NCBI RefSeq assembly: GCF_900187885.1
Contig: NZ_FYEK01000078.1
Span: forward strand, 1 to 64,000
Reading direction: 5' to 3'
Source: Thermoflexus hugenholtzii JAD2
Lineage (GTDB): Bacteria > Chloroflexota > Anaerolineae > Thermoflexales > Thermoflexaceae
DNA: 64,000 nt
The notes under the pieces were generated by a model that ran no database searches, was not told the DNA's origin, and saw nothing but the letters and a program-made list of their open reading frames with translations. Position numbers and translations under genes: made by a program. The stretch's first letter is position 1; every line of letters begins with the position of its first letter. Shown here in pieces: positions 40,776 to 51,141 of this stretch.

Positions 40776-41852
40776 TCATCGAAGAGCCTGACCGCTTTGG
40801 GCATCCATCCAGCGCACCGCTTCGGGGGGGAAGGACAGCCAGAGGGTTTGACCCGGCTCCACCGCGCGTCCCGGAGGCAGCGTCATCTTCAAGGTCTGGG
40901 AGCCCAGGTAGGCGGTCACCAGAACCTGAGCCCCCAGGGGCTCCACGACCGAGACCGTAACGGGGACCGTCCATGGCTGCGGAGACGCTTCGATGCGGAT
41001 GTGCTCCGCCCGGATGCCTAACAACAACGGCTGCTGGGGGACGACCCCGGGGATCTCGGGCATGGGGAGGCGATATCCTTCCAGGACAAAACTCCACCCG
41101 CCCTCGCTATTCTCCGCCACCCCACGCAGGAAATTCATCGGCGGGTTCCCGATGAACCCGCCCACGAAGACCGTGGCCGGGGCTTCATAAATCCGCATGG
41201 GTGTGTCGACTTGGACGATCTCCCCCTCGCGCATCACGGCGATACGATCCCCCAGGCTCATCGCTTCCACTTGGTCATGGGTCACATAGATGATCGTCAT
41301 CCCCGTCTCCTGGTGGAGCCGTTTCAGCTCCGCCCGCGCATGCAACCGCAACAGCGCGTCCAGATTGCTGAGGGGCTCATCCATCAGCAGCACATCCGGC
41401 TGCATCACCAGGGCCCGGGCCACCGCGACCCGCTGCCGCTGACCTCCGGAGAGCTGGGCGGGATACCGGTCGAGCAACCCCTCCAGCTGCAACATCGTCG
41501 CGGCTCGCTCCACCCGCCGCCGCACCTCCGCCTCCGGAACCCGCCGCATGCGCAACCCGAAGGCGATGTTGTCGTAAACCTTCATGTGGGGGAAAACCGC
41601 ATAGCTCTGGAATACCATGGCGATGTTTCGACGGCGGGGAGGCAGCCCGGTGACCTCCCGCTCTCCGATGAAGATACAACCGTGATCCACCCGCTCCAGG
41701 CCGGCGACACAGCGCAACAGGGTGGTCTTGCCACATCCGGAGGGCCCCAGCAGCACAAAGAACTCTCCATCCTCGATCGTCAGGGAGACGTCCCGCAACG
41801 CAATGACCTTCCCGAAGGTCTTCCGGATCCGCTCCAGACGCACACGTGCCAT
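40776..41852 (-). CDS. Sugar ABC transporter ATP-binding protein (UgpC/MalK family)
   Basis: A 358-residue ATPase energising carbohydrate import. Walker A GPSGCGKTTLLRCVAGLE, Q-loop VFQSYAVFPHMKVYDNIAFG, signature LSGGQRQRVAVARALVMQPD, Walker B VLLMDEPLSNLDA and H-loop YVTHDQVEAM are present. A C-terminal TOBE-like region of about 120 residues follows, as in MalK. The frame is open upstream of ATG 41852, but that start begins the conserved MARVRLERIRKTFG and avoids overlapping the permease gene. It is last in a minus-strand operon of transporter genes. Confidence 0.92.
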   Translation of the reverse strand: MARVRLERIRKTFGKVIALRDVSLTIEDGEFFVLLGPSGCGKTTLLRCVAGLERVDHGCIFIGEREVTGLPPRRRNIAMVFQSYAVFPHMKVYDNIAFGLRMRRVPEAEVRRRVERAATMLQLEGLLDRYPAQLSGGQRQRVAVARALVMQPDVLLMDEPLSNLDALLRLHARAELKRLHQETGMTIIYVTHDQVEAMSLGDRIAVMREGEIVQVDTPMRIYEAPATVFVGGFIGNPPMNFLRGVAENSEGGWSFVLEGYRLPMPEIPGVVPQQPLLLGIRAEHIRIEASPQPWTVPVTVSVVEPLGAQVLVTAYLGSQTLKMTLPPGRAVEPGQTLWLSFPPEAVRWMDAQSGQALR

Positions 41853-41884
41853 ATGGTCTTCACCCCCGAATATGGGGCGCCGGC

Positions 41885-42700
41885 TCAGCGGCTGACGACC
41901 CCCCAAAGATTGAAGAGATAACGCCGGATGATGAGAAGGATGATCATGGCGGGGGCGACCATGAAAAAGCCCCCAGCGAACCGGAAGTAGAGGGGCGATT
42001 CGTTGAGGACCGTGAGGACCAGGGCCGGCAACGTTCGTTGCCGCAGGGTCAGGATGGTGGCGGCGAAGACCTCATTCCATGAGATCACGAAGGTGAAGAG
42101 GCTGGCGGCAGCCAGGCCAGGCAGGGCCAGAGGCAAGGAGACCCGAAGGAAGGCGGTGAGCGGGCTGCAGCCCAGGGTCATGGCCGCCTCCTCCAGATCG
42201 CGGGGGATGGCCATGAACACGCTGGAGGTGATCAGGATGACGAAAGGGAGGGCCATAGCGGTATGGACCAGGGCCACTGCCCATGGCGTGTCGTAGAGGC
42301 CGATGCGGATGAAGGTCACCGCCAGGGGGATGGAGAGGATCGCCATTGGGAACATCCGGGTCATCAGGATCCCCATGCGCACCGCCTCCCGCCCCGGGAA
42401 GATGAAGCGAGCCAGGGCGTATCCCGCCGGCGCCCCCAGGGCCAGGGACAGGATCATCGTGAGCAGGGCAACCACCACGCTGTTGCGCGTGGCCGCCAGC
42501 GTCCCCGTGGCGTTCACGAAGAATTGCATGGTCTCCACCGAGAACTCCAGCGGAAGCAGGGGACGGGGCCAGCGATACACGGCCATACGCGGGCTGAAGG
42601 CCAGCAGCCCGATCAGGTAGATCGGGGCCAGCACCCAGAGGGCCAAAAGCGCTGCCCCCCCATACCAGAGCAGGTCCGCCATCCGGGATCCCCGCTTCAT
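41885..42700 (-). CDS. Sugar ABC transporter permease (MalG type)
   Basis: A 271-residue inner-membrane permease with six helices and the EAA loop EEAAMTLGCSPLTAFLRVSL preceded by SVFMAIPRDL. The VLAPIYLIGLLAFSP beginning and the C-terminal FFMVAPAMIILLIIRRYLF are typical of MalG-type CUT1 permeases. ATG 42700 overlaps the stop of the MalF-type gene (ATGA), so the two are translationally coupled. Confidence 0.9.
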   Translation of the reverse strand: MKRGSRMADLLWYGGAALLALWVLAPIYLIGLLAFSPRMAVYRWPRPLLPLEFSVETMQFFVNATGTLAATRNSVVVALLTMILSLALGAPAGYALARFIFPGREAVRMGILMTRMFPMAILSIPLAVTFIRIGLYDTPWAVALVHTAMALPFVILITSSVFMAIPRDLEEAAMTLGCSPLTAFLRVSLPLALPGLAAASLFTFVISWNEVFAATILTLRQRTLPALVLTVLNESPLYFRFAGGFFMVAPAMIILLIIRRYLFNLWGVVSR

Positions 42701-43563
42701 CGCCCCATCTCCTCCGGGCGCACCCGCAGGACGTAGAGATAAAAGCCGGTCACCAAAGCGGACAGGGCCAGGATGATCAGCGAATACGCCGCGGCCACAT
42801 GGGGGTTATGGGCCCCCGCATACCAGACGTAGGCCTCTGAGGCCAGGACGGGCAGGACCCCCCCGCCCAGGGCCACCACCACGGCGAAGGTCTGGAAGGC
42901 GAAAAGGGTGCGGATGATCAGGGCCGCCTGCAGGCTGGGCCGCAGCAGGGGCAGGACCACGTAACGCAGTTTCTGAGCCAGGTTCGCGCCGAAGACCTCC
43001 GCCGCCTCCCAGTACTCGCCCAGGATCATCTGCAACCCCGCCACCAGGGTGACCATCACGATAGCCGTGGCCCTCCACACCTCCGCGATCACCACCGCCA
43101 GGAGGATGCCGATCGGGTGCTCATATGAGAGAAAGATGATGGGACGCTGGATCAACCCCAGGGCGCGCAAGACGACATTGAGATATCCCCGCTCGGTGAA
43201 GATGGCCAGCCAGACCAGCCCCGCCGCCAGCTCCGAGATGGCCAGCGGGATCGCATACACGTAAAGGAAAAATCCGGCGCCGCGGCGCCGGGACTGCGCA
43301 ATCAAGGCCATGGTCAAAGCCAGAGCCAGCTGCAGGGGGATCACCAGGGCGATCAGCACCAGCGTGTTGCGCAGGGCGGGCATGAAGCGGGTGTCCGCCA
43401 GCATGCGGCGGAAGGGCTCCCCGGACCAGGAGCCATCCGGGGCCTGGGCGGCCAGCAACAGAGCCTGGACGCTGGGGAGAGCGATGAACAGCCCCAGGAA
43501 AAGAATGGCCGGCATCAACAGCGCCAGCGGCAACCCGATTTCGACTTTCCACCACCGACTCAC
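42697..43563 (-). CDS. Sugar ABC transporter permease (MalF type)
   Basis: A 288-residue permease with six helices. The EAA loop reads EYWEAAEVFGANLAQKLRYV, and LPLALLMPAILFLGLFIALP begins the first helix. The start is taken as GTG 43563 (AGGGAGGCTGGG upstream), giving SRWWKVEIGLPLAL; the frame is open 26 codons further upstream but that part overlaps the solute-binding gene poorly and is arginine-rich. It overlaps the MalG-type gene by 4 nt. Confidence 0.88.
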   Translation of the reverse strand: MSRWWKVEIGLPLALLMPAILFLGLFIALPSVQALLLAAQAPDGSWSGEPFRRMLADTRFMPALRNTLVLIALVIPLQLALALTMALIAQSRRRGAGFFLYVYAIPLAISELAAGLVWLAIFTERGYLNVVLRALGLIQRPIIFLSYEHPIGILLAVVIAEVWRATAIVMVTLVAGLQMILGEYWEAAEVFGANLAQKLRYVVLPLLRPSLQAALIIRTLFAFQTFAVVVALGGGVLPVLASEAYVWYAGAHNPHVAAAYSLIILALSALVTGFYLYVLRVRPEEMGR

Positions 43564-43625
43564 CCCAGCCTCCCTGAAGGTCGGGAGGCAGACCCTCGGC
43601 CTGCCCCCCGACCGCGATCCCCGGA

Positions 43626-44993
43626 TCACCGCACCTGGCATGGTCCGGTGCTGGGCGGATCCGGTGGCCAGCAGGCGGCGCCGGTCTCGTTCAGGATCGC
43701 CTGCAGCTTGGCCGCTTCCTCCTGAAGCACCTTTTCGATGTCCTCACCCTTCAGCACGATGCGCTCCAGGGTGTCCCGGTTGACCTTGTTGAACTCGCCG
43801 GCCTTGCCGCCCAGGCCCACCGGCAACAGCGCCGGGATCGCATCTTGTGCCCCGGATTGCTTGACGACCGCCTCGCCTTCGATCCGGACATGAGCGGGCA
43901 TATCCGCCGGCATGGGGATGTCCAGGACCGGGAAGAAAGCGACCTCGCGGAGGATGGTCAGCTGAGTCTCCGGCCGGGTGAGGAACTCAATCAACGCCTC
44001 CGCCCCTTCCCGGTTTGGCGCGCCCTTCACGATCCCGAGACAGGCCAGCACCGGCATGAAGCCCCGTCCCTTGGGGCCCGCCGGCACGGGGGCCGCGATG
44101 AAGTCCTCCGGCCGCTCCTTGAAGGCGTTCACCAACCGGGCCGTGTGATCCCAGGCGATCCACACCTCCTCGGCCAGCAACGGCTCCTGCATGAAATCAT
44201 AGGTGGTGGATTGTGGGTTGACATGCTCCCAGAGGGCCTTAAAGGACTTCCACATCTCCACCGCCTCCGGGCTCTTGTACGTTGTGACGAAGGCGCCGGT
44301 GTAGGATGGATACAGATAGCCCTGGACGAAGCGGTGGATCAGGCCCTTGGGACCCAGGGGGAACCCCAGACGGCGCTCCCCTGTCGCCTTATGGATGTTC
44401 TCCCCCCACTGTCGGAGCTGATCCCATGTCAGGGCGTTGACATCCGCGCCCGCAGGCAGGTAGTCCAGCGCCTTCTTGTTGATCGCCAGGATATAAGTGG
44501 CCTGCATCCACGGGATGCAATACTGGCGATCCGTGCCCAGCTTCCCCAGCTCCGCGAACTGGGAGATCATCGGACGATCCTTCAGGCGCTCCATCAGCGG
44601 GGTGAGATCCTCCAGGGCGTTGTCCTTGAGGAGCGTGACGAAGTTACCATGCAACGCCCCCACCACATCCACCGTCACCTTGCCCGCCTGGATCTCCGCG
44701 CGGATCCGATCGTGGAAGGGGCCTTCGTCCTCCGGGATGAACTCCACAGGGGCGCCGAAGGGTTTGAGGATCACGTTGCGCATCTTCTCCGCCTCCTCCA
44801 CCGGCCGCAGCTGGGTGGAGAGGAAGAGGACCGGCTTGGGCGGCGGGGTGGGCGTGGGCGGAGGAGGCGTGGGGGAGGGCGCCGCCGGCGGAGGCGGAGC
44901 GGTGGGAGTCGGCGTGGGAGGTGCCGCCGGCTGGCAGGCGAGGGACAGGATGAGGGCGACCGTGAAGAGGGCCCAGAGCCTTCGCGTACGCAT
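43626..44993 (-). CDS. Extracellular solute-binding lipoprotein of a sugar ABC transporter
   Basis: A 455-residue type 1 solute-binding protein. The signal peptide ends in LSLACQP, Cys20 the lipid site, followed by a long proline/threonine linker (residues about 22-52). The body matches CUT1 binding proteins: VLFLSTQLRPVEEAEKMRNV, then YCIPWMQATYILAINKKALD, and WIAWDHTARLVNAFK. AGGAGGTGGATC precedes ATG 44993. It lies directly upstream of the two permease genes and downstream of the GntR-SBP regulator, completing the importer. Substrate unknown, likely a sugar or compatible solute given the divergent GH63-like gene. Confidence 0.88.
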   Translation of the reverse strand: MRTRRLWALFTVALILSLACQPAAPPTPTPTAPPPPAAPSPTPPPPTPTPPPKPVLFLSTQLRPVEEAEKMRNVILKPFGAPVEFIPEDEGPFHDRIRAEIQAGKVTVDVVGALHGNFVTLLKDNALEDLTPLMERLKDRPMISQFAELGKLGTDRQYCIPWMQATYILAINKKALDYLPAGADVNALTWDQLRQWGENIHKATGERRLGFPLGPKGLIHRFVQGYLYPSYTGAFVTTYKSPEAVEMWKSFKALWEHVNPQSTTYDFMQEPLLAEEVWIAWDHTARLVNAFKERPEDFIAAPVPAGPKGRGFMPVLACLGIVKGAPNREGAEALIEFLTRPETQLTILREVAFFPVLDIPMPADMPAHVRIEGEAVVKQSGAQDAIPALLPVGLGGKAGEFNKVNRDTLERIVLKGEDIEKVLQEEAAKLQAILNETGAACWPPDPPSTGPCQVR

Positions 44994-45011: not shown

Positions 45012-46517
45012 TCAATGTGGGAACAGATGGCTTTCCGGCAACATATAACCCGTGAGGGCAGCGATCCGCTCCGCCGCCCTCGGGACCGCCGCTTCCAGCG
45101 GACGACGGCCGAGCAGTACGTCCTCCACCAGCGCCTGCCATTCCTCCGAAACCCGGGCGTAAGCCGGCAGGGAGGGGCGCGGCCGCCCCTGCTCCACCCA
45201 ACGCTGCGTCCGCGCCAGGAACCCTCCTCGCTCCCCGGCCAGATGGGAGAGGGCGTGGATCCAGGGAGGATGGCGCCCAGTCATGCGGGCGAACGCCCGC
45301 AAAGGCTCCCCCTCCACGGCCTGTCGCAACAGCGCCAGGGCCCGCTCGGGATGGCGGGATTGCCGATAAATCCCGAACGCCATGCCGCCCATCAAACCGG
45401 CCGGACGCCCATGAGGCCCTGCCGGGATGGGGAGGACCATGAGGCGCTCCAGGAAGGTCGCTTCATCCCACCCCGCCGCCTGCTGGATCAAATCCGCCTC
45501 ATAGGTGCCTCCCACGGCCATCACCACCTGCCCCTCCGCCAGCCAGAGAGCCGCCTGCTCTCGATGGAAGGCGGTCACCTCGGGGGGCATCAGCTGATGT
45601 TCCCAGATCAACGCCCGCAGGAAGGCCAGCGTCTCATAAGTGGCCGGCTGATCCAGCAGGACCCAACCCCCGCTCACCAGCTCGCCCCCATTCGCCCAGA
45701 GGAAGGGAAGCGTTTGATAGGTGGTGGTCTCGCCGCCCGTCCGGCCGGCCACCATCGCCAGCGGATAAGGGCCCAGGCCGTAACGCCGGCGGACCTCCGG
45801 TTGCCGAAAATGAGCCCCTACCCGGAGCAGATCCTCCCAGGTGGTCGGCGGGCGCAGCCCTTCCGCCTCCAGCAGATCCCGCCGCACCCACAGGACGCTG
45901 ACATCCATGCTGATGGGGATCCCATACAGGTGTCCTTCGAAGACCCACGCCGAGCGGGGGCCCGGCATCAGCGTGGCCAGCGCCTGGGCCTCCCAGGCCG
46001 GATCGATCTCCCCGACGGCTCGTAGATGGCGAAGGGTCACGAACTCCGCCAGCCAAGCGGAATCCAGGATGGAAAGATCAGGAGCCCCGCCATTCCCCAC
46101 CGCCTCCATCAGCGCTCCCCGCAACTGTAGGAAAGGGATTTGCTCCACCGCCAGCTCGATCGGCTGGTCTGGATGTTGCTGATTCCAGCGGGCGACGGCG
46201 AGATCCAGGGGGATGCGCCAGCGGGGGTGGGAGATCACCACCCGCAACACCAATGGAGAACTCGCCCCCCCGTTTCGAGGGGCGACAAAGGTGCCCCGCC
46301 CCCGTTGACGGAGGATCAGACCCTCCCGCGCCAGATCCTCCAGGGCCTGACGGACCGGCGCCCGGCTGATCCCATAACGGGCGCAAAGCTCCGCTTCCGT
46401 GGGCAGACGATCCCCCGGCCGGAGCCGACCCCCCAAGATCTCCGACCGCAGGAGCTGCTTTAGCTGCTCGTGAAGCGGGACCCCCAGCGCGGGATCCAGC
46501 CGCCGACGTGCCCCCAC
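45012..46517 (-). CDS. GntR DNA-binding domain fused to a type 1 solute-binding-protein fold
   Basis: A 501-residue protein. Residues about 12-80 are a GntR winged helix: PLHEQLKQLLRSEILGGRLR, PGDRLPTEAELCARYGISRA, PVRQALEDLAREGLILRQRG and RGTF. Residues about 90-490 resemble the SBP_bac_1 fold of extracellular sugar-binding proteins: VARWNQQHPDQPIELAVEQI, FEGHLYGIPISMDVSVLWVR, RRDLLEAEGLRPPTTWEDLL and GGMAFGIYRQSRHPERAL. There is no signal peptide, so the binding fold is probably the cytoplasmic inducer-sensing domain. The start is GTG 46517. It heads the transporter operon and faces the GH63-like gene, so it most likely controls both. Confidence 0.85.
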   Translation of the reverse strand: MGARRRLDPALGVPLHEQLKQLLRSEILGGRLRPGDRLPTEAELCARYGISRAPVRQALEDLAREGLILRQRGRGTFVAPRNGGASSPLVLRVVISHPRWRIPLDLAVARWNQQHPDQPIELAVEQIPFLQLRGALMEAVGNGGAPDLSILDSAWLAEFVTLRHLRAVGEIDPAWEAQALATLMPGPRSAWVFEGHLYGIPISMDVSVLWVRRDLLEAEGLRPPTTWEDLLRVGAHFRQPEVRRRYGLGPYPLAMVAGRTGGETTTYQTLPFLWANGGELVSGGWVLLDQPATYETLAFLRALIWEHQLMPPEVTAFHREQAALWLAEGQVVMAVGGTYEADLIQQAAGWDEATFLERLMVLPIPAGPHGRPAGLMGGMAFGIYRQSRHPERALALLRQAVEGEPLRAFARMTGRHPPWIHALSHLAGERGGFLARTQRWVEQGRPRPSLPAYARVSEEWQALVEDVLLGRRPLEAAVPRAAERIAALTGYMLPESHLFPH

Positions 46518-46539: not shown

Positions 46540-46576
46540 TTTGTTATAATGATATACAAAATTTTGGACTTGTCAA
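46540..46576. promoter_or_regulatory. Overlapping divergent promoters with a GntR-like operator
   Basis: Plus strand: extended -10 TGTTATAAT (46542-46550) toward the GH63-like gene. Minus strand: TTGACA (46576-46571), 16-bp spacer, TATCAT (46554-46549) toward the GntR-SBP gene. The two -10 elements overlap. A symmetric 21-bp element TTTGT-11 bp-ACAAA (46540-46560) covers both, the form of a GntR-family operator. A regulator bound here would block both directions. Confidence 0.6.
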
Positions 46577-46651
46577 GGAAGGAAGCATGAGGCGGGTCTC
46601 CACCCCTCCGCGCTCTCCGGTCCTGCAAGGGCCTATCAACAGGAGGGCTTG

Positions 46652-47971
46652 ATGATTCAGAAGGACCTGCGACAGGCGGCAGAAGAGGTGCTGCGGCGGA
46701 ACGATCGGGGGACATTCACCGCCCCTTCCCCCCGGCAGTATCCCCACCTCTGGCTGTGGGACGCCGGGTTCGCCGCCCTGGGCTGGGCGGCCTTAGGGGA
46801 TTACGAGCGGGCCTACCGGGAGATCCGGGCCGCCCTCCGGGGGCAGTGGCGCAACGGGATGCTCCCCCACGTAGTCTTCTACGACTGGCCCAGCGCCTAT
46901 TTTCCGGGCGCCGATGTCTGGCGCTCCGATCTGGCCTCGGAAGCCCCGGCGGAGCTCCCCACCTCCGGCATCACCCAGCCCCCGGTCCTGGCTTTCGTGG
47001 TCGAGATCCTGACCCGCTATGATCCCGATCGAGGGCGCGCGGCAGCCTTCCGCCGGGAAGCCTTCCCCGCACTCTACGCGTATCACCGGTGGCTGCACAC
47101 CGCTCGGGACCCCGAGGGCATGGGCCTGAGCGTCCTGGTGCACCCCTGGGAGTCCGGGATGGACAACAGCCCCCTGTGGGACGCGGCCCTGGCCCGGGTG
47201 CCGGTGGGGGATCTGCCGCCCTATCGCCGAGCCGATGCCCATTGGGTGCCCGAGGAGCAGCGACCCCGCTCCGCCGACTACGACCGCTTCCTGGCCTTGA
47301 TCCTCCATCTGCGATCGCATCGCTACGGGGAAAGCGGCGTCCAGACCTCTTCCTTCCGGGTCTATGACATCCTGTTCAACGCCCTTCGCTATCGCTCGGA
47401 GGAGGCCCTCTGGACGATGGCGGCGGAGCTGGGCGAACCGACAGGGGAGATCGAGGGGTGGCTGGCGCGAGGCCGCGCCGCCTTTCAGGCCTATCTGTGG
47501 GATCCGGCGCGTGGGTTCTTCCTGGACTGGGACGCGGTGGCGAAGGCCCGGATCCCGGTGATCGCGGCGGGCGGGTTCCTGGCCCTCTACGCAGGCCTGG
47601 CCACGCCGGAGCAGGCCCACGAAATGGTGGCGCGCTATCTCACGAACCCGGAGGCCTTCGCCCCGGACGGCGGGACGCGCTATCTGGTCCCTACAGTGAG
47701 CAAGGCCGAGCCCGGCTGGGAGCCCCGACGCTACTGGCGGGGGCCGATCTGGATCAACCTCAACGCCCTGATCGCCCACGGCCTGCGGCGCTATGGGTTC
47801 GTCGACCTGGCCGAGCAGATCCGCGCCGACACCTTTGCCCTCGTCGCTCGCTCAGGGTTCTGGGAATACTACGACCCCCGCACTGGGGAAGGATTGGGAA
47901 TCGGAGATTTCACCTGGTCCGCCGCCCTCCTCCTGGCCTGGGACCTGCTGGAGATCCCCGAAACGAGGTAG
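46652..47971 (+). CDS. GH63-like (trehalase/mannosylglycerate-hydrolase type) glycoside hydrolase
   Basis: A 439-residue cytoplasmic (alpha/alpha)6-barrel enzyme. HLWLWDAGFAALGWAALGD near the N-terminus, LVHPWESGMDNSPLWDAALA (candidate acid/base Asp) and PRTGEGLGIGDFTWSAALLL near the C-terminus are the pattern of GH63 mannosylglycerate/glucosylglycerate hydrolases. The exact substrate is not certain. ATG 46652 follows AGGAGG by 5 nt; TTG 46649 is in frame and less likely. It is transcribed divergently from the sugar importer, so it probably hydrolyses the imported glycoside. Its stop codon lies inside a palindromic repeat. Confidence 0.8.
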   Translation: MIQKDLRQAAEEVLRRNDRGTFTAPSPRQYPHLWLWDAGFAALGWAALGDYERAYREIRAALRGQWRNGMLPHVVFYDWPSAYFPGADVWRSDLASEAPAELPTSGITQPPVLAFVVEILTRYDPDRGRAAAFRREAFPALYAYHRWLHTARDPEGMGLSVLVHPWESGMDNSPLWDAALARVPVGDLPPYRRADAHWVPEEQRPRSADYDRFLALILHLRSHRYGESGVQTSSFRVYDILFNALRYRSEEALWTMAAELGEPTGEIEGWLARGRAAFQAYLWDPARGFFLDWDAVAKARIPVIAAGGFLALYAGLATPEQAHEMVARYLTNPEAFAPDGGTRYLVPTVSKAEPGWEPRRYWRGPIWINLNALIAHGLRRYGFVDLAEQIRADTFALVARSGFWEYYDPRTGEGLGIGDFTWSAALLLAWDLLEIPETR

Positions 47972-48001: not shown

Positions 48002-49585
48002 CTACCCGCCTGCCCCGGAACCTGCAGGATGCGGGGAGGGCACGGAAGGTCGGTCAAAGACGATATGGGAGCCAGGGGCCATCTCCTTATGGCGGGTCAG
48101 GGGACGGAACAGGGAGGCCAGGATCCCCTGCTCGCGGTCCGGCAGGCCGGTGGCGAGGGGCTGCCCCAGCGGGTCAAAGACGGCAGCCGGGGCACTGGGC
48201 TCACCGAACAGTGGGGAGGCCCGCACCAGGAAGACCCGGTTCTCATCCGCCCGGGTTCGGGCGAGGAGATCGTCGGTCGCCCGACGGGCGGAGGGGAGCC
48301 AGATCAGCAGCTCCGCGCCCTGGGCCATCAGGCTGCGGGCGATCTCCGGCGCCCAGATCTCCTCCGACCCCAGCACCCCGAGGCCACCCCATGGCGTCTC
48401 CATCGCCCGCGGCGGATCCCCGACGCGGCGGCGGGCGATCTCCTGCCCGCGGTCGATAAGGTGGATCCCCACATGCCCTTCATCCACCAGGGGAGCGATC
48501 AGGCCGCAGGCCAGCCGGGCGCTGAGGGCCTGGAGGGCGTCGAGGGTTGTCGTCTGCTGATAGGCCGGGGCGCGCTCCCACCCCTCCGGGATGCCGGGCA
48601 GGATCAGAAGGGAGGCCCCCTGGCGGATCAGGCGCTCGCCCAGCTCCTCCACCCGTCGCCGCCACGCCTCCGGATCCTCATAGGGCTTCAGCTGGAGGAT
48701 GCCGACCCGGAGATACATCGAATCCGCTGGGATCGGCTCCCGGAGCCGCCGGGCCACCGGGAGCGCCTCCCCCGGCGTGTTCCACCACAGTGCTGGCGTG
48801 GAGGGCCGCGCGCGGGGGCCGGGCGCCGCCGCCAGATCGACCTCCGCCAGCACGATCTCCTCGCGATCCGGGCTCCCCAGCGCCCGATAGGCGCCGTCCG
48901 GCCCCACCACGCCGCTCCGTCCGCAATAGAGGATGCTCTCGGCCTCCACCCCCACCTTGTTCGCCCAGGCGATCCAGAGGCCGTTCTCCAGGGCCCGGGC
49001 GGGCAGGAGATAAGTCACCTGGGGATTGGTCCGGGCCTCGGGGGCCCCGGTGGAGGTCACCAGAGCGGTGGCGTCCAGGATCAGGCGGGCGCCCCGCAGG
49101 GCCAGGGTGCGGGGGATCTCCGGCATGCGGGCGTCGGCGCAGATCATCAGGCCTACCTGTCCGAAGGGGAGATCGAAAACCGGCAGTTCGGAGCCGGGAT
49201 CGAACCACTCTCGATCGAAGTGCCAGAGGAAGAGTTTGTCGTGGAAGCCCAGGACCTGGCCGTGGGGATTGATGAGGGCCACTGAGTTGCGCAGCCGCCC
49301 GGAGGGATGGGGGCGGACGAGGCCCACCGCCACATAGGCCCGGTGCCGACGGGCCTTCTCTCCGAACAGACGGAGGACCTCCTCCAGCGGACGGGGCTCG
49401 GCGCGATGATAAGCCTCTAACGAGTGGAGATAGTAAGCGGGGTAAGTGCACTCCGGCAGCAGGATGAGATCCGGCCGGTGGCGTCCGGCCTCCTCCACGC
49501 CCTGCAGCGCCCGCTCCAGGGCCTCTTCCGCCCGCTCCAGCCCGAGGGCCTCCAGCTGCACACAGGCGATCCCAAGTCGGGACAT
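48002..49585 (-). CDS. Tandem carbon-nitrogen hydrolase (nitrilase superfamily), second domain degenerate
   Basis: A 527-residue protein with two nitrilase-fold domains. Domain 1 (about residues 1-270) keeps the catalytic triad: Glu in LILLPECTYPAYY, Lys in GFHDKLFLWHFD, Cys in VGLMICADARMPEIPRTLAL. Domain 2 (about 300-500) retains the fold (LGILQLKPYEDPEAW-like start, ETPWGGLGVLGSEEIWAPEI) but the catalytic Cys and Lys are missing, so it is probably inactive and structural. It hydrolyses or condenses amides; substrate unknown. ATG 49585 follows GGGAGGTG. It is convergent with the GH63-like gene. Confidence 0.85.
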   Translation of the reverse strand: MSRLGIACVQLEALGLERAEEALERALQGVEEAGRHRPDLILLPECTYPAYYLHSLEAYHRAEPRPLEEVLRLFGEKARRHRAYVAVGLVRPHPSGRLRNSVALINPHGQVLGFHDKLFLWHFDREWFDPGSELPVFDLPFGQVGLMICADARMPEIPRTLALRGARLILDATALVTSTGAPEARTNPQVTYLLPARALENGLWIAWANKVGVEAESILYCGRSGVVGPDGAYRALGSPDREEIVLAEVDLAAAPGPRARPSTPALWWNTPGEALPVARRLREPIPADSMYLRVGILQLKPYEDPEAWRRRVEELGERLIRQGASLLILPGIPEGWERAPAYQQTTTLDALQALSARLACGLIAPLVDEGHVGIHLIDRGQEIARRRVGDPPRAMETPWGGLGVLGSEEIWAPEIARSLMAQGAELLIWLPSARRATDDLLARTRADENRVFLVRASPLFGEPSAPAAVFDPLGQPLATGLPDREQGILASLFRPLTRHKEMAPGSHIVFDRPSVPSPHPAGSGAGG

Positions 49586-49724
49586 TTTCACCTCCCGCGA
49601 TGCTTTGTATGTGTGGGATCTGTATGCGTGGAATCTTCGATCCGCCCCTCAACCGCCTCCCGGGTCAAGCGCTCACATCCGGGCTTGTTGGATCGGCTCC
49701 GGCGACCCGGAGAGATGCAGACCT

Positions 49725-50135
49725 TCACTCCAGGATCTCATACGGGCTTGGGGTGGGCCACTGAGGGAGCAATCCCATCAGCATGATGCCCGCCACCACG
49801 CACAGGCGCACCGGCTCCGTCCCGGTGTTGAACACGCGATGGGCGGTGTTCTCACGATTGTAGATGGCATCCCCCGCCTCGAACTCGTAACGCTCTCCTT
49901 CCGATTCGATGTAACCCCTACCCTGGAGGACGAAGTAGACCTCCTCGCAGTTATGCCGGTGCAGGGGCGTGTGCGCACCGGGATCGATCTCCACGATCCC
50001 CATGATCAATGTCTTGGTGGGAAAGCCTGTCTCCGGGTAAATCACCTTCCAGTCCCGCACGCCGGGCATGCGCTCCATGGGAGCGCCGCTCAGGAACTCC
50101 GAAGACTTGATCACCACGCGGCGTGATCCTCCCAT
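49725..50135 (-). CDS. Single-domain cupin
   Basis: A 136-residue beta-barrel protein. Cupin motif 1 is PGAHTPLHRHNCEEVYFVLQ with GRGYIE, and motif 2 is AIYNRENTAHRVFNTGTEPV. The histidines and glutamate needed for metal binding are present. Likely a small-molecule isomerase, dioxygenase or sugar-binding cupin; substrate unknown. ATG 50135 follows AGGAGGTGGCCGG. It lies 139 nt upstream of the nitrilase gene on the same strand. Confidence 0.82.
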   Translation of the reverse strand: MGGSRRVVIKSSEFLSGAPMERMPGVRDWKVIYPETGFPTKTLIMGIVEIDPGAHTPLHRHNCEEVYFVLQGRGYIESEGERYEFEAGDAIYNRENTAHRVFNTGTEPVRLCVVAGIMLMGLLPQWPTPSPYEILE

Positions 50136-50403
50136 CCGGCCACCTCCTGGCAAGTTAGAGGAGAAACGATCTTTACGCGTAGTATTGCATCAAGCAGGCA
50201 GAGAGCAAGAAGCCGAGGACCATCGATTCGAACCGGCTGTGAGACAGGAGCGCCGCATGCTCTCATTGCTTCCTTGATGCCGGTGCGGCTTACAGCTCCA
50301 CAAAATGAGCATCCAGCGATAGACCTTCCGGTGAAGTGCAAGGCCGCGTGGCAACCAGCCGGATCCCGTAAACTGAAAGGCGATCCTTCCGGGGAGGCCT
50401 GTG
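50136..50403. other. Divergent intergenic region, cupin / creatininase-family
   Basis: No gene seen. The right part presumably carries promoters for the creatininase-family gene (a weak TAAACT near 50369) and the left part for the cupin gene, but neither has a convincing two-box match. A T-loop-like GATTCGAACC at 50226 has no surrounding tRNA fold. Confidence 0.3.
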
Positions 50404-51141
50404 ATGTCCCTGGTGCGCTACGAACATCTGAACGGAGAAGAGGCGCGTCAGATCCTGACGGCGCGTCGGCTGGCCATCCTGCCCATCGGAGCCCTGGAAG
50501 CCCACGGCCCGCATCTCCCAGTGGGCACGGACAACCTGCTGGCCCAAGCCATCGCCGAGCGGGTGGCCGAACAGGTCGGAGGCGTGCTGCTGCCCCTCCT
50601 CCCTTATGGCCAGGTCTGGTCCCTTCAGGATTTCCCCGGATCCCTCTCCATCTCCAACGAGGTCCTAAGCGGTCTCCTGGTCGACCTGGGGCTCAGCCTC
50701 CAGCGGCAGGGGGCGGCGATCCTGGCGGTGATCAACGGCCATATCGGCAACGGAGCCGCCCTCCAGGCGGCCGCCCGTCGCCTCCACGCCCTCCAAGGCC
50801 CCGTGATGTATGTCTTCACCTACCCCGGGCTCGGCGAGGCCGCCACGCGGATCTGCACCTCCCGCCCCCTGCCCGGCGGTTACTTCCACGCCGATGAGAT
50901 CGAGACCTCTATGGTCCTCTATGTCGCCCCTGAACACGTGCGTCTGGATCGGATGATCCGAGAGGAACCCCGACTCCCCCCCGACTTCCCTTACCGCCCG
51001 GTCCCCTGGACCGAGATCACCCGCACCGGCGTCCTCGGCGACCCCACCCTGGCCACGGCAGAGAAAGGAGCCGCCCTCATAGAGGCCATCGTCGCCCAAA
51101 TCGTCTCCGTCCTCCGCCTCGCCCTTCAGCGACTCGGATGA
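50404..51141 (+). CDS. Creatininase family (amidohydrolase-like) protein
   Basis: A 245-residue metal-dependent amide hydrolase. Conserved metal and active-site segments are LPIGALEAHGPHLPVGTDNL, INGHIGNGAALQAA and YFHADEIETSMVLYVAPE. The family includes creatinine amidohydrolase, mycofactocin MftE-like proteins and riboflavin/F420-related amidases. The substrate here is not evident. GGGGAGGCCT precedes ATG 50404; an in-frame GTG sits one codon upstream. It is convergent with the PTS operon, separated by a terminator. Confidence 0.88.
   Translation: MSLVRYEHLNGEEARQILTARRLAILPIGALEAHGPHLPVGTDNLLAQAIAERVAEQVGGVLLPLLPYGQVWSLQDFPGSLSISNEVLSGLLVDLGLSLQRQGAAILAVINGHIGNGAALQAAARRLHALQGPVMYVFTYPGLGEAATRICTSRPLPGGYFHADEIETSMVLYVAPEHVRLDRMIREEPRLPPDFPYRPVPWTEITRTGVLGDPTLATAEKGAALIEAIVAQIVSVLRLALQRLG

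Follow-up and report, generated by a model that had tools for sequence, protein, structure and literature searches.

A regulator gene of Thermoflexus hugenholtzii JAD2 codes for a protein in which a GntR winged helix is joined to a complete solute-binding-protein fold of the SBP_bac_1 type, an arrangement confirmed by domain profiles and structure prediction, with the binding-protein part as a predicted cytoplasmic sensor. The gene lies in the first 64,000 nucleotides of contig NZ_FYEK01000078.1 (assembly GCF_900187885.1), the whole stretch analysed here and referred to below as the window; the features discussed are collected in Table 1. The protein represents a real, conserved and little-described class of regulators, and its likely link to the glycosylglycerates is the new result of this analysis.

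Table 1. Features of the regulator locus, in positions of the window.
Feature	Position	Strand	Remarks
Importer ATPase (ABC_tran + TOBE_2; UgpC/MalK type)	40776..41906	-	assigned by domain profiles
Importer permease 2 (BPD_transp_1)	41885..42700	-	assigned by Pfam
Importer permease 1 (BPD_transp_1)	42697..43641	-	assigned by Pfam
Importer solute-binding lipoprotein (SBP_bac_1)	43626..44993	-	18 bp past the regulator stop codon
Regulator gene	45012..46517	-	GTG start, 501 aa; GntR winged helix 16-78, short linker ~79-88, SBP_bac_1 sensor ~89-489
DNA coding for the GntR domain match	46284..46472	-	85.3 bits
Candidate operator TTTGTTATAATGATATACAAA	46540..46560		overlaps the -10 box; AT-rich
-10 box TATCAT, regulator/importer operon promoter	46549..46554	-	predicted; 16-nt spacer
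-35 box TTGACA, regulator/importer operon promoter	46571..46576	-	predicted
GH63-type hydrolase, divergent	46649..47971	+	most similar to the mannosylglycerate hydrolase of T. thermophilus; ATG likelier at 46652

With regard to the DNA-binding part, the Pfam GntR model (PF00392) matches residues 16-78 with 81.7 bits against a cut-off of 27, which places the protein in the GntR family; it carries one of the two GntR domains found above cut-off in the genome. The remainder is matched by SBP_bac_1 (PF01547) at residues 107-397, with 90.4 bits against a cut-off of 26, and SBP_bac_8 likewise exceeds its Pfam cut-off. Pfam shows no sensor domain of the UTRA, FCD, aminotransferase or LacI type in the protein at E<=1, and NCBIfam returned only GntR models over about the first 80 residues, plus a weak SBP match. 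In a sequence search of the PDB, residues ~6-80 matched YvoA-type heads, and residues ~108-490 matched MalE3 (6dtq) and TMBP (1eu8). The AlphaFold2 model, computed from an alignment of 35 relatives, displays two domains with a mean pLDDT of 92.1 and a pTM of 0.81, low confidence being confined to the termini and to the linker around residue 83. When this model was compared with the PDB by Foldseek, the matches included MalE3 (E 3.5e-28, TM-score 0.86 by target length), the trehalose/maltose-binding protein and further sugar-binding proteins of the same class; the best 50 matches listed belong to the MalE class of sugar-type ABC solute-binding proteins. Among them is SmoF, the ligand of which, sulfoquinovosylglycerol, is an acidic sugar-glycerol compound that resembles a glycosylglycerate, an analogy that is suggestive only. 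The first-pass annotation of this DNA had proposed a fusion of GntR with SBP_bac_1 in which a cytoplasmic binding-protein fold acts as the sensor. Both points are borne out by the Pfam domains, the predicted structure and the Foldseek matches; UTRA or another known GntR effector domain, looked for in the C-terminal part, is absent, and a UTRA/FCD assignment of this part is ruled out by Pfam and NCBIfam.

The regulator has no predicted signal peptide or membrane helix, and its N-terminus is occupied by the winged helix. The hydropathy maximum over 19 residues is 1.0, compared with 1.8 at the start of the importer binding protein. Since signal peptide and membrane helix are both missing, the sensor is expected on the cytoplasmic side; the protein thus carries the SBP_bac_1 domain of an importer component, but not the corresponding export signal.

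AraR consists of a GntR head and a LacI-type PBP-I sensor, and MngR belongs to the GntR/UTRA class. Like AraR, the regulator joins a GntR head to a periplasmic-binding-protein-like sugar sensor; however, the AraR sensor has the type I (LacI/ribose-binding) fold, and no Peripla_BP match was found in the regulator by Pfam. AraR is a minor subfamily among the six (FadR, HutC, MocR, YtrA, AraR and PlmA) distinguished in a 2015 paper, where a class with an SBP_bac_1 sensor is absent (PMC4494728). The head is nearest to the models of the HutC subfamily (YvoA, MngR) and to YvoA itself, and the candidate sites, where seen, display the GT-N4-AC spacing reported for HutC-type GntR regulators (PMC4494728), but the missing UTRA domain sets the protein apart from this subfamily. 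It also differs from the FadR subfamily, having no match to the all-helical FCD/FadR_C domain and a predicted sensor of the alpha/beta SBP fold. In E. coli, mannosylglycerate uptake is repressed by MngR and proceeds through the PTS component MngA, the only import route described in this source (PMC8490865), whereas the importer beside the regulator is of the ABC type.

By its way of working, the nearest known kind is that of SgrR and DsvR, which combine a helix-turn-helix with an SBP_bac_5 domain (PMC13060122). They too are cytoplasmic one-component regulators with a whole solute-binding-protein fold as sensor, and negative autoregulation has been reported for E. coli SgrR (PMC13060122); they differ in the DNA-binding head, in the SBP type (SBP_bac_5 instead of SBP_bac_1) and in the gene neighbourhood; neither the SgrR-type HTH nor SBP_bac_5 was matched in the regulator by Pfam at E<=1. 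The Thermotoga maritima MalE3 and the Thermococcus litoralis trehalose/maltose-binding protein share the fold of the sensor (TM-scores of 0.86 and 0.82 by target length; 23% identity), but are extracytoplasmic importer components devoid of a DNA-binding domain. A survey notes in general terms that transcriptional regulators, too, can use SBP-type Pfam domains for sensing (PMC9602780), so the principle is already known.

The fusion forms an old and conserved family. Among 100 genomes, comprising the source genome, eight congeners and other members of the same class, ten including the source carry full-length fusions, six in the genus and four in other families. These genes are all uninterrupted and share 78-96% identity with the regulator in the five congeneric genomes and 38-47% in the four genomes of other families (five genes). 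An artefact of frame, gene fusion or assembly is ruled out by such full-length relatives across genomes. When 400 genomes were drawn evenly from the phylum, three proved to be carriers, source genome included, and a scan of GTDB representatives with the family alignment gave 38 loci, mostly from Chloroflexota, Thermomicrobiota and Bipolaricaulota, with three from Actinomycetota. The fusion occurs in 27 of 100 genomes of the Bipolaricaulota group, fragments counted, and in three of 395 genomes of the class of Arthrobacter. Its description by the first-pass annotation as rare or little described is thus right in one respect: we found no published account of GntR joined to SBP_bac_1 in the open-access literature searched. 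On the other hand, its frequency in Bipolaricaulota and its presence in Chloroflexota show that it is no one-off.

In two Bipolaricaulota genomes (G918, contig C36; G945, contig C54), the fusion gene is split or interrupted by stop codons, through sequencing error or decay. Two loci labelled Neomarinimicrobiota (L065) and Caldisericota (L068) nest within the Bipolaricaulota clade with end branches of 0.059 and 0.014, respectively; this nesting and the short branch of L068 point to misbinned MAG contigs or, failing that, to very recent transfer, and both loci were left out of the phylum count. In a plasmid search, SBPs and GntR heads were found separately, a single record alone covering 80% of the query.

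The regulator is predicted to head an operon in the order regulator, binding protein, permease, permease and ATPase. The sensor shares only distant similarity with the binding protein of this importer (26% identity over 216 aa, E 2e-4; E 0.003 in a second comparison), so that an origin by duplication of that protein is ruled out, and it is closer to binding proteins of the maltose/trehalose type. A similar importer cassette is found with the fusion in Anaerolineae, Bipolaricaulota and Arthrobacter pascens; most pairs of permeases and of ATPases share 45-70% identity. This conserved synteny supports the earlier suggestion that sensor and adjacent importer have a ligand class in common, which would now be narrowed to the glycosylglycerates.

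One indication of this ligand class comes from the divergent hydrolase. The Thermus thermophilus mannosylglycerate hydrolase TTHA0978 is its nearest structural relative (E 3e-120), and the Mycolicibacterium hassiacum glucosylglycerate hydrolase (MhGgH) comes second. Alignment to MhGgH, with chain numbering shifted by two, revealed that the catalytic Asp and Glu and the substrate-contact residues listed for these enzymes (PMC6608630) are kept. The NCBI model for glucosylglycerate hydrolases (NF047898) gives 369 bits, under the equivalog cut-off of 550; this score leaves both substrates, and the enzyme is accordingly annotated as a predicted mannosyl- or glucosylglycerate hydrolase. It adjoins the fusion in three congeneric genomes, source included, and is located on another contig in two congeners that carry the fusion (G005 and G008), while in G001 and G003 the hydrolase is present and the fusion was not found. 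Past the hydrolase, at 48002-51141, the window codes for a small cupin, a creatininase-family protein and a 529-aa carbon-nitrogen hydrolase in which the Pfam domain is matched twice. Carbon-nitrogen-hydrolase-like genes, with products 28-29% identical to that of the window, also follow ABC permeases near the fusion in two Actinomycetota loci (L074:14928-15737 and L075:19294-20118).

Other genes for glycosylglycerate metabolism accompany the relatives. Mannosylglycerate synthase (GT78; 377 bits with Pfam MGS_GT, E 2e-162 with PDB 2y4k) adjoins the fusion in eight loci and stands between fusion and importer cassette wherever the contig includes the latter. In Arthrobacter, a divergent operon codes for binding protein, permeases, ATPase, a glucosylglycerate hydrolase (675 bits, cut-off 550) and a glycerate kinase. 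In two loci from Anaerolineae (L051 and L076), the fusion gene overlaps at its start with the gene for a glycosyltransferase of the mannosylglucosylglycerate-synthase type. The L051 enzyme reaches 243 bits, the cut-off being 640, and every match among these synthase-like GT4 enzymes lies under the family cut-off. Among 21 test loci kept apart from those behind the glycosylglycerate idea, the synthase was found within ~10 kb of the fusion in four, and the GT4 enzyme in eight. In three of them (L135, L140 and L142), the regulator is again followed by binding protein, two permeases, ATPase and synthase, in this order, and in the last two a divergently oriented GT4 gene lies ~160 bp from the regulator, a layout like that of the hydrolase in the window. 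As for the 100 Bipolaricaulota genomes, 27 have the fusion, 21 the synthase and 16 both (Fisher p 1e-7, shared ancestry not corrected), and 14 of these 16 pairs lie on the same contig at most 5 kb apart. The synthase-like GT4 is present in 45 of 100 Chloroflexota genomes and is common enough there for its weight as evidence to lie mainly in Bipolaricaulota. In a separate Chloroflexota clade (L055-L061 with L063/L071), different ABC importers are adjacent and none of the tested glycosylglycerate enzymes is nearby; the family may therefore not share one ligand, or these loci differ. Altogether, gene context indicates that the sensor probably binds a compound of the mannosyl- or glucosylglycerate class, and the reading we favour, with a reasonable degree of confidence, is that of a cytoplasmic GntR repressor with an SBP-fold sensor, which would sense imported mannosyl- or glucosylglycerate and act on its own operon.

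The same neighbourhoods bear on the direction of control. If the protein served osmolyte homeostasis, its ligand-bound form would bind DNA with the solute as co-repressor and would stop mannosylglycerate from being either taken up or made as soon as its pool in the cytoplasm is full. The linkage of the Bipolaricaulota fusion to mannosylglycerate synthase and a mannosylglucosylglycerate-synthase-like enzyme, next to a similar importer, would suit such a role, and synthesis genes among these neighbours fit homeostasis as well as catabolism. However, the neighbours in the window and in Arthrobacter are hydrolases, with a glycerate kinase in the latter, and suit substrate induction; moreover, none of the mannosylglycerate synthase or synthase-like types searched for was found in the source genome, which fits a consumer and not a producer. 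While synthase-linked loci fit induction and end-product control alike, hydrolase-linked loci fit induction, and we regard co-repression as rather unlikely.

A different ligand may also be considered, namely an ordinary alpha-linked disaccharide of the trehalose or maltose type, in which case the glycosylglycerate genes would lie by chance beside a generic sugar importer. Maltose- and trehalose-binding proteins are indeed the closest among solved structures, and in the alignment with the trehalose-binding protein, D152, W155 and D205 of the sensor fall on an Asp/Trp motif and an Asp motif conserved in these proteins; the position of D205 is occupied by Ser throughout the synthase-linked clade. 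That linkage to various types of glycosylglycerate enzymes recurs in unrelated phyla, and also in the independent loci, speaks against chance and makes this alternative decidedly doubtful. Last, it is highly improbable that the SBP domain is only a module for dimerisation or protein docking, reading for instance the state of the importer through permease contact with no small-molecule ligand: SBPs dock to permeases by nature, and transporter contacts control some other regulators, but SBP docking faces lie outside while this sensor is cytoplasmic, and D152, E263, Y339 and R447 are invariant across a deeply diverged family. Among the 35 relatives, the sensor residues D147, D152, W210, W227, E263, G336-G337, Y339, G377-G378, Q386 and R447 are invariant, and such motifs suggest a retained pocket.

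The divergent region between regulator and hydrolase contains one strong sigma-70-type promoter, with 11 of 12 consensus matches against 0.1 such sites expected in shuffled sequences. The candidate operator at 46540-46560, singled out by the first-pass annotation, is present as TTTGT-N11-ACAAA, but its palindrome alone is no better than those of shuffled sequences and was dropped as a significant signal. It holds TATAATGATA (46545-46554) and TGTTATAAT (46542-46550), both recurring in promoters of relatives. Across 40 upstream regions, the motif TRTNATNAYA was found in 11, compared with 0.45 in shuffles, and the stricter TGTNATNACA, of the GT-N4-AC type, in five, compared with 0.07. Both motifs were picked post hoc and overlap AT-rich -10 boxes, and are hence given as leads. 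From the position of the site over the promoter, we infer that the regulator acts as a repressor. The notion of a binding protein turned into a repressor is thus consistent with the fold, although the sensor does not derive from the adjacent binding protein, and the word repressor reflects the promoter geometry.

In other branches, a palindrome TTTGGTGTA...TACACCAAA was noticed over a TTGACA promoter in three loci (L055, L057 and L060). Directly upstream of the regulator gene at 9280 in L056, there is a strong palindrome, AACTTTGTCACTCATGCGTTACAAAGTT, that exceeds shuffled sequences and makes a good candidate for the operator of the Thermomicrobiales branch.

Under the favoured reading of a repressor relieved by an imported glycosylglycerate, the protein would be a one-component factor made of a GntR/HutC-type winged helix and a complete solute-binding-protein fold of the maltose/trehalose class, dimerising via or beside the sensor. 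It would sit over the -10 region, repressing its own operon and probably the divergent hydrolase gene. The linked importer would bring in alpha-mannosylglycerate or alpha-glucosylglycerate, on which the sensor cleft would close, and this closure would shift the winged helices and release the DNA. In Thermoflexus hugenholtzii, the GH63 hydrolase could then cleave the imported solute into sugar and glycerate.

Mannosylglycerate is a thermoprotective solute, protecting against heat and salt, and a single-protein sensor for it, if the proposal is true, would be usable as a biosensor. The genomic linkage provides a concrete ligand prediction together with a candidate ABC importer for mannosylglycerate. 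Whether the fusion amounts to a new GntR subfamily, with a whole type 1 SBP as sensor, spread over at least three phyla and acting as a dedicated mannosyl- or glucosylglycerate sensor that marks an ABC importer, is in our view evenly balanced. If so, the GntR family, whose members are usually classified by their effector domain, would gain a further class of sensor, and SgrR would be joined by a second case of a solute-binding protein turned into a cytoplasmic gene switch.
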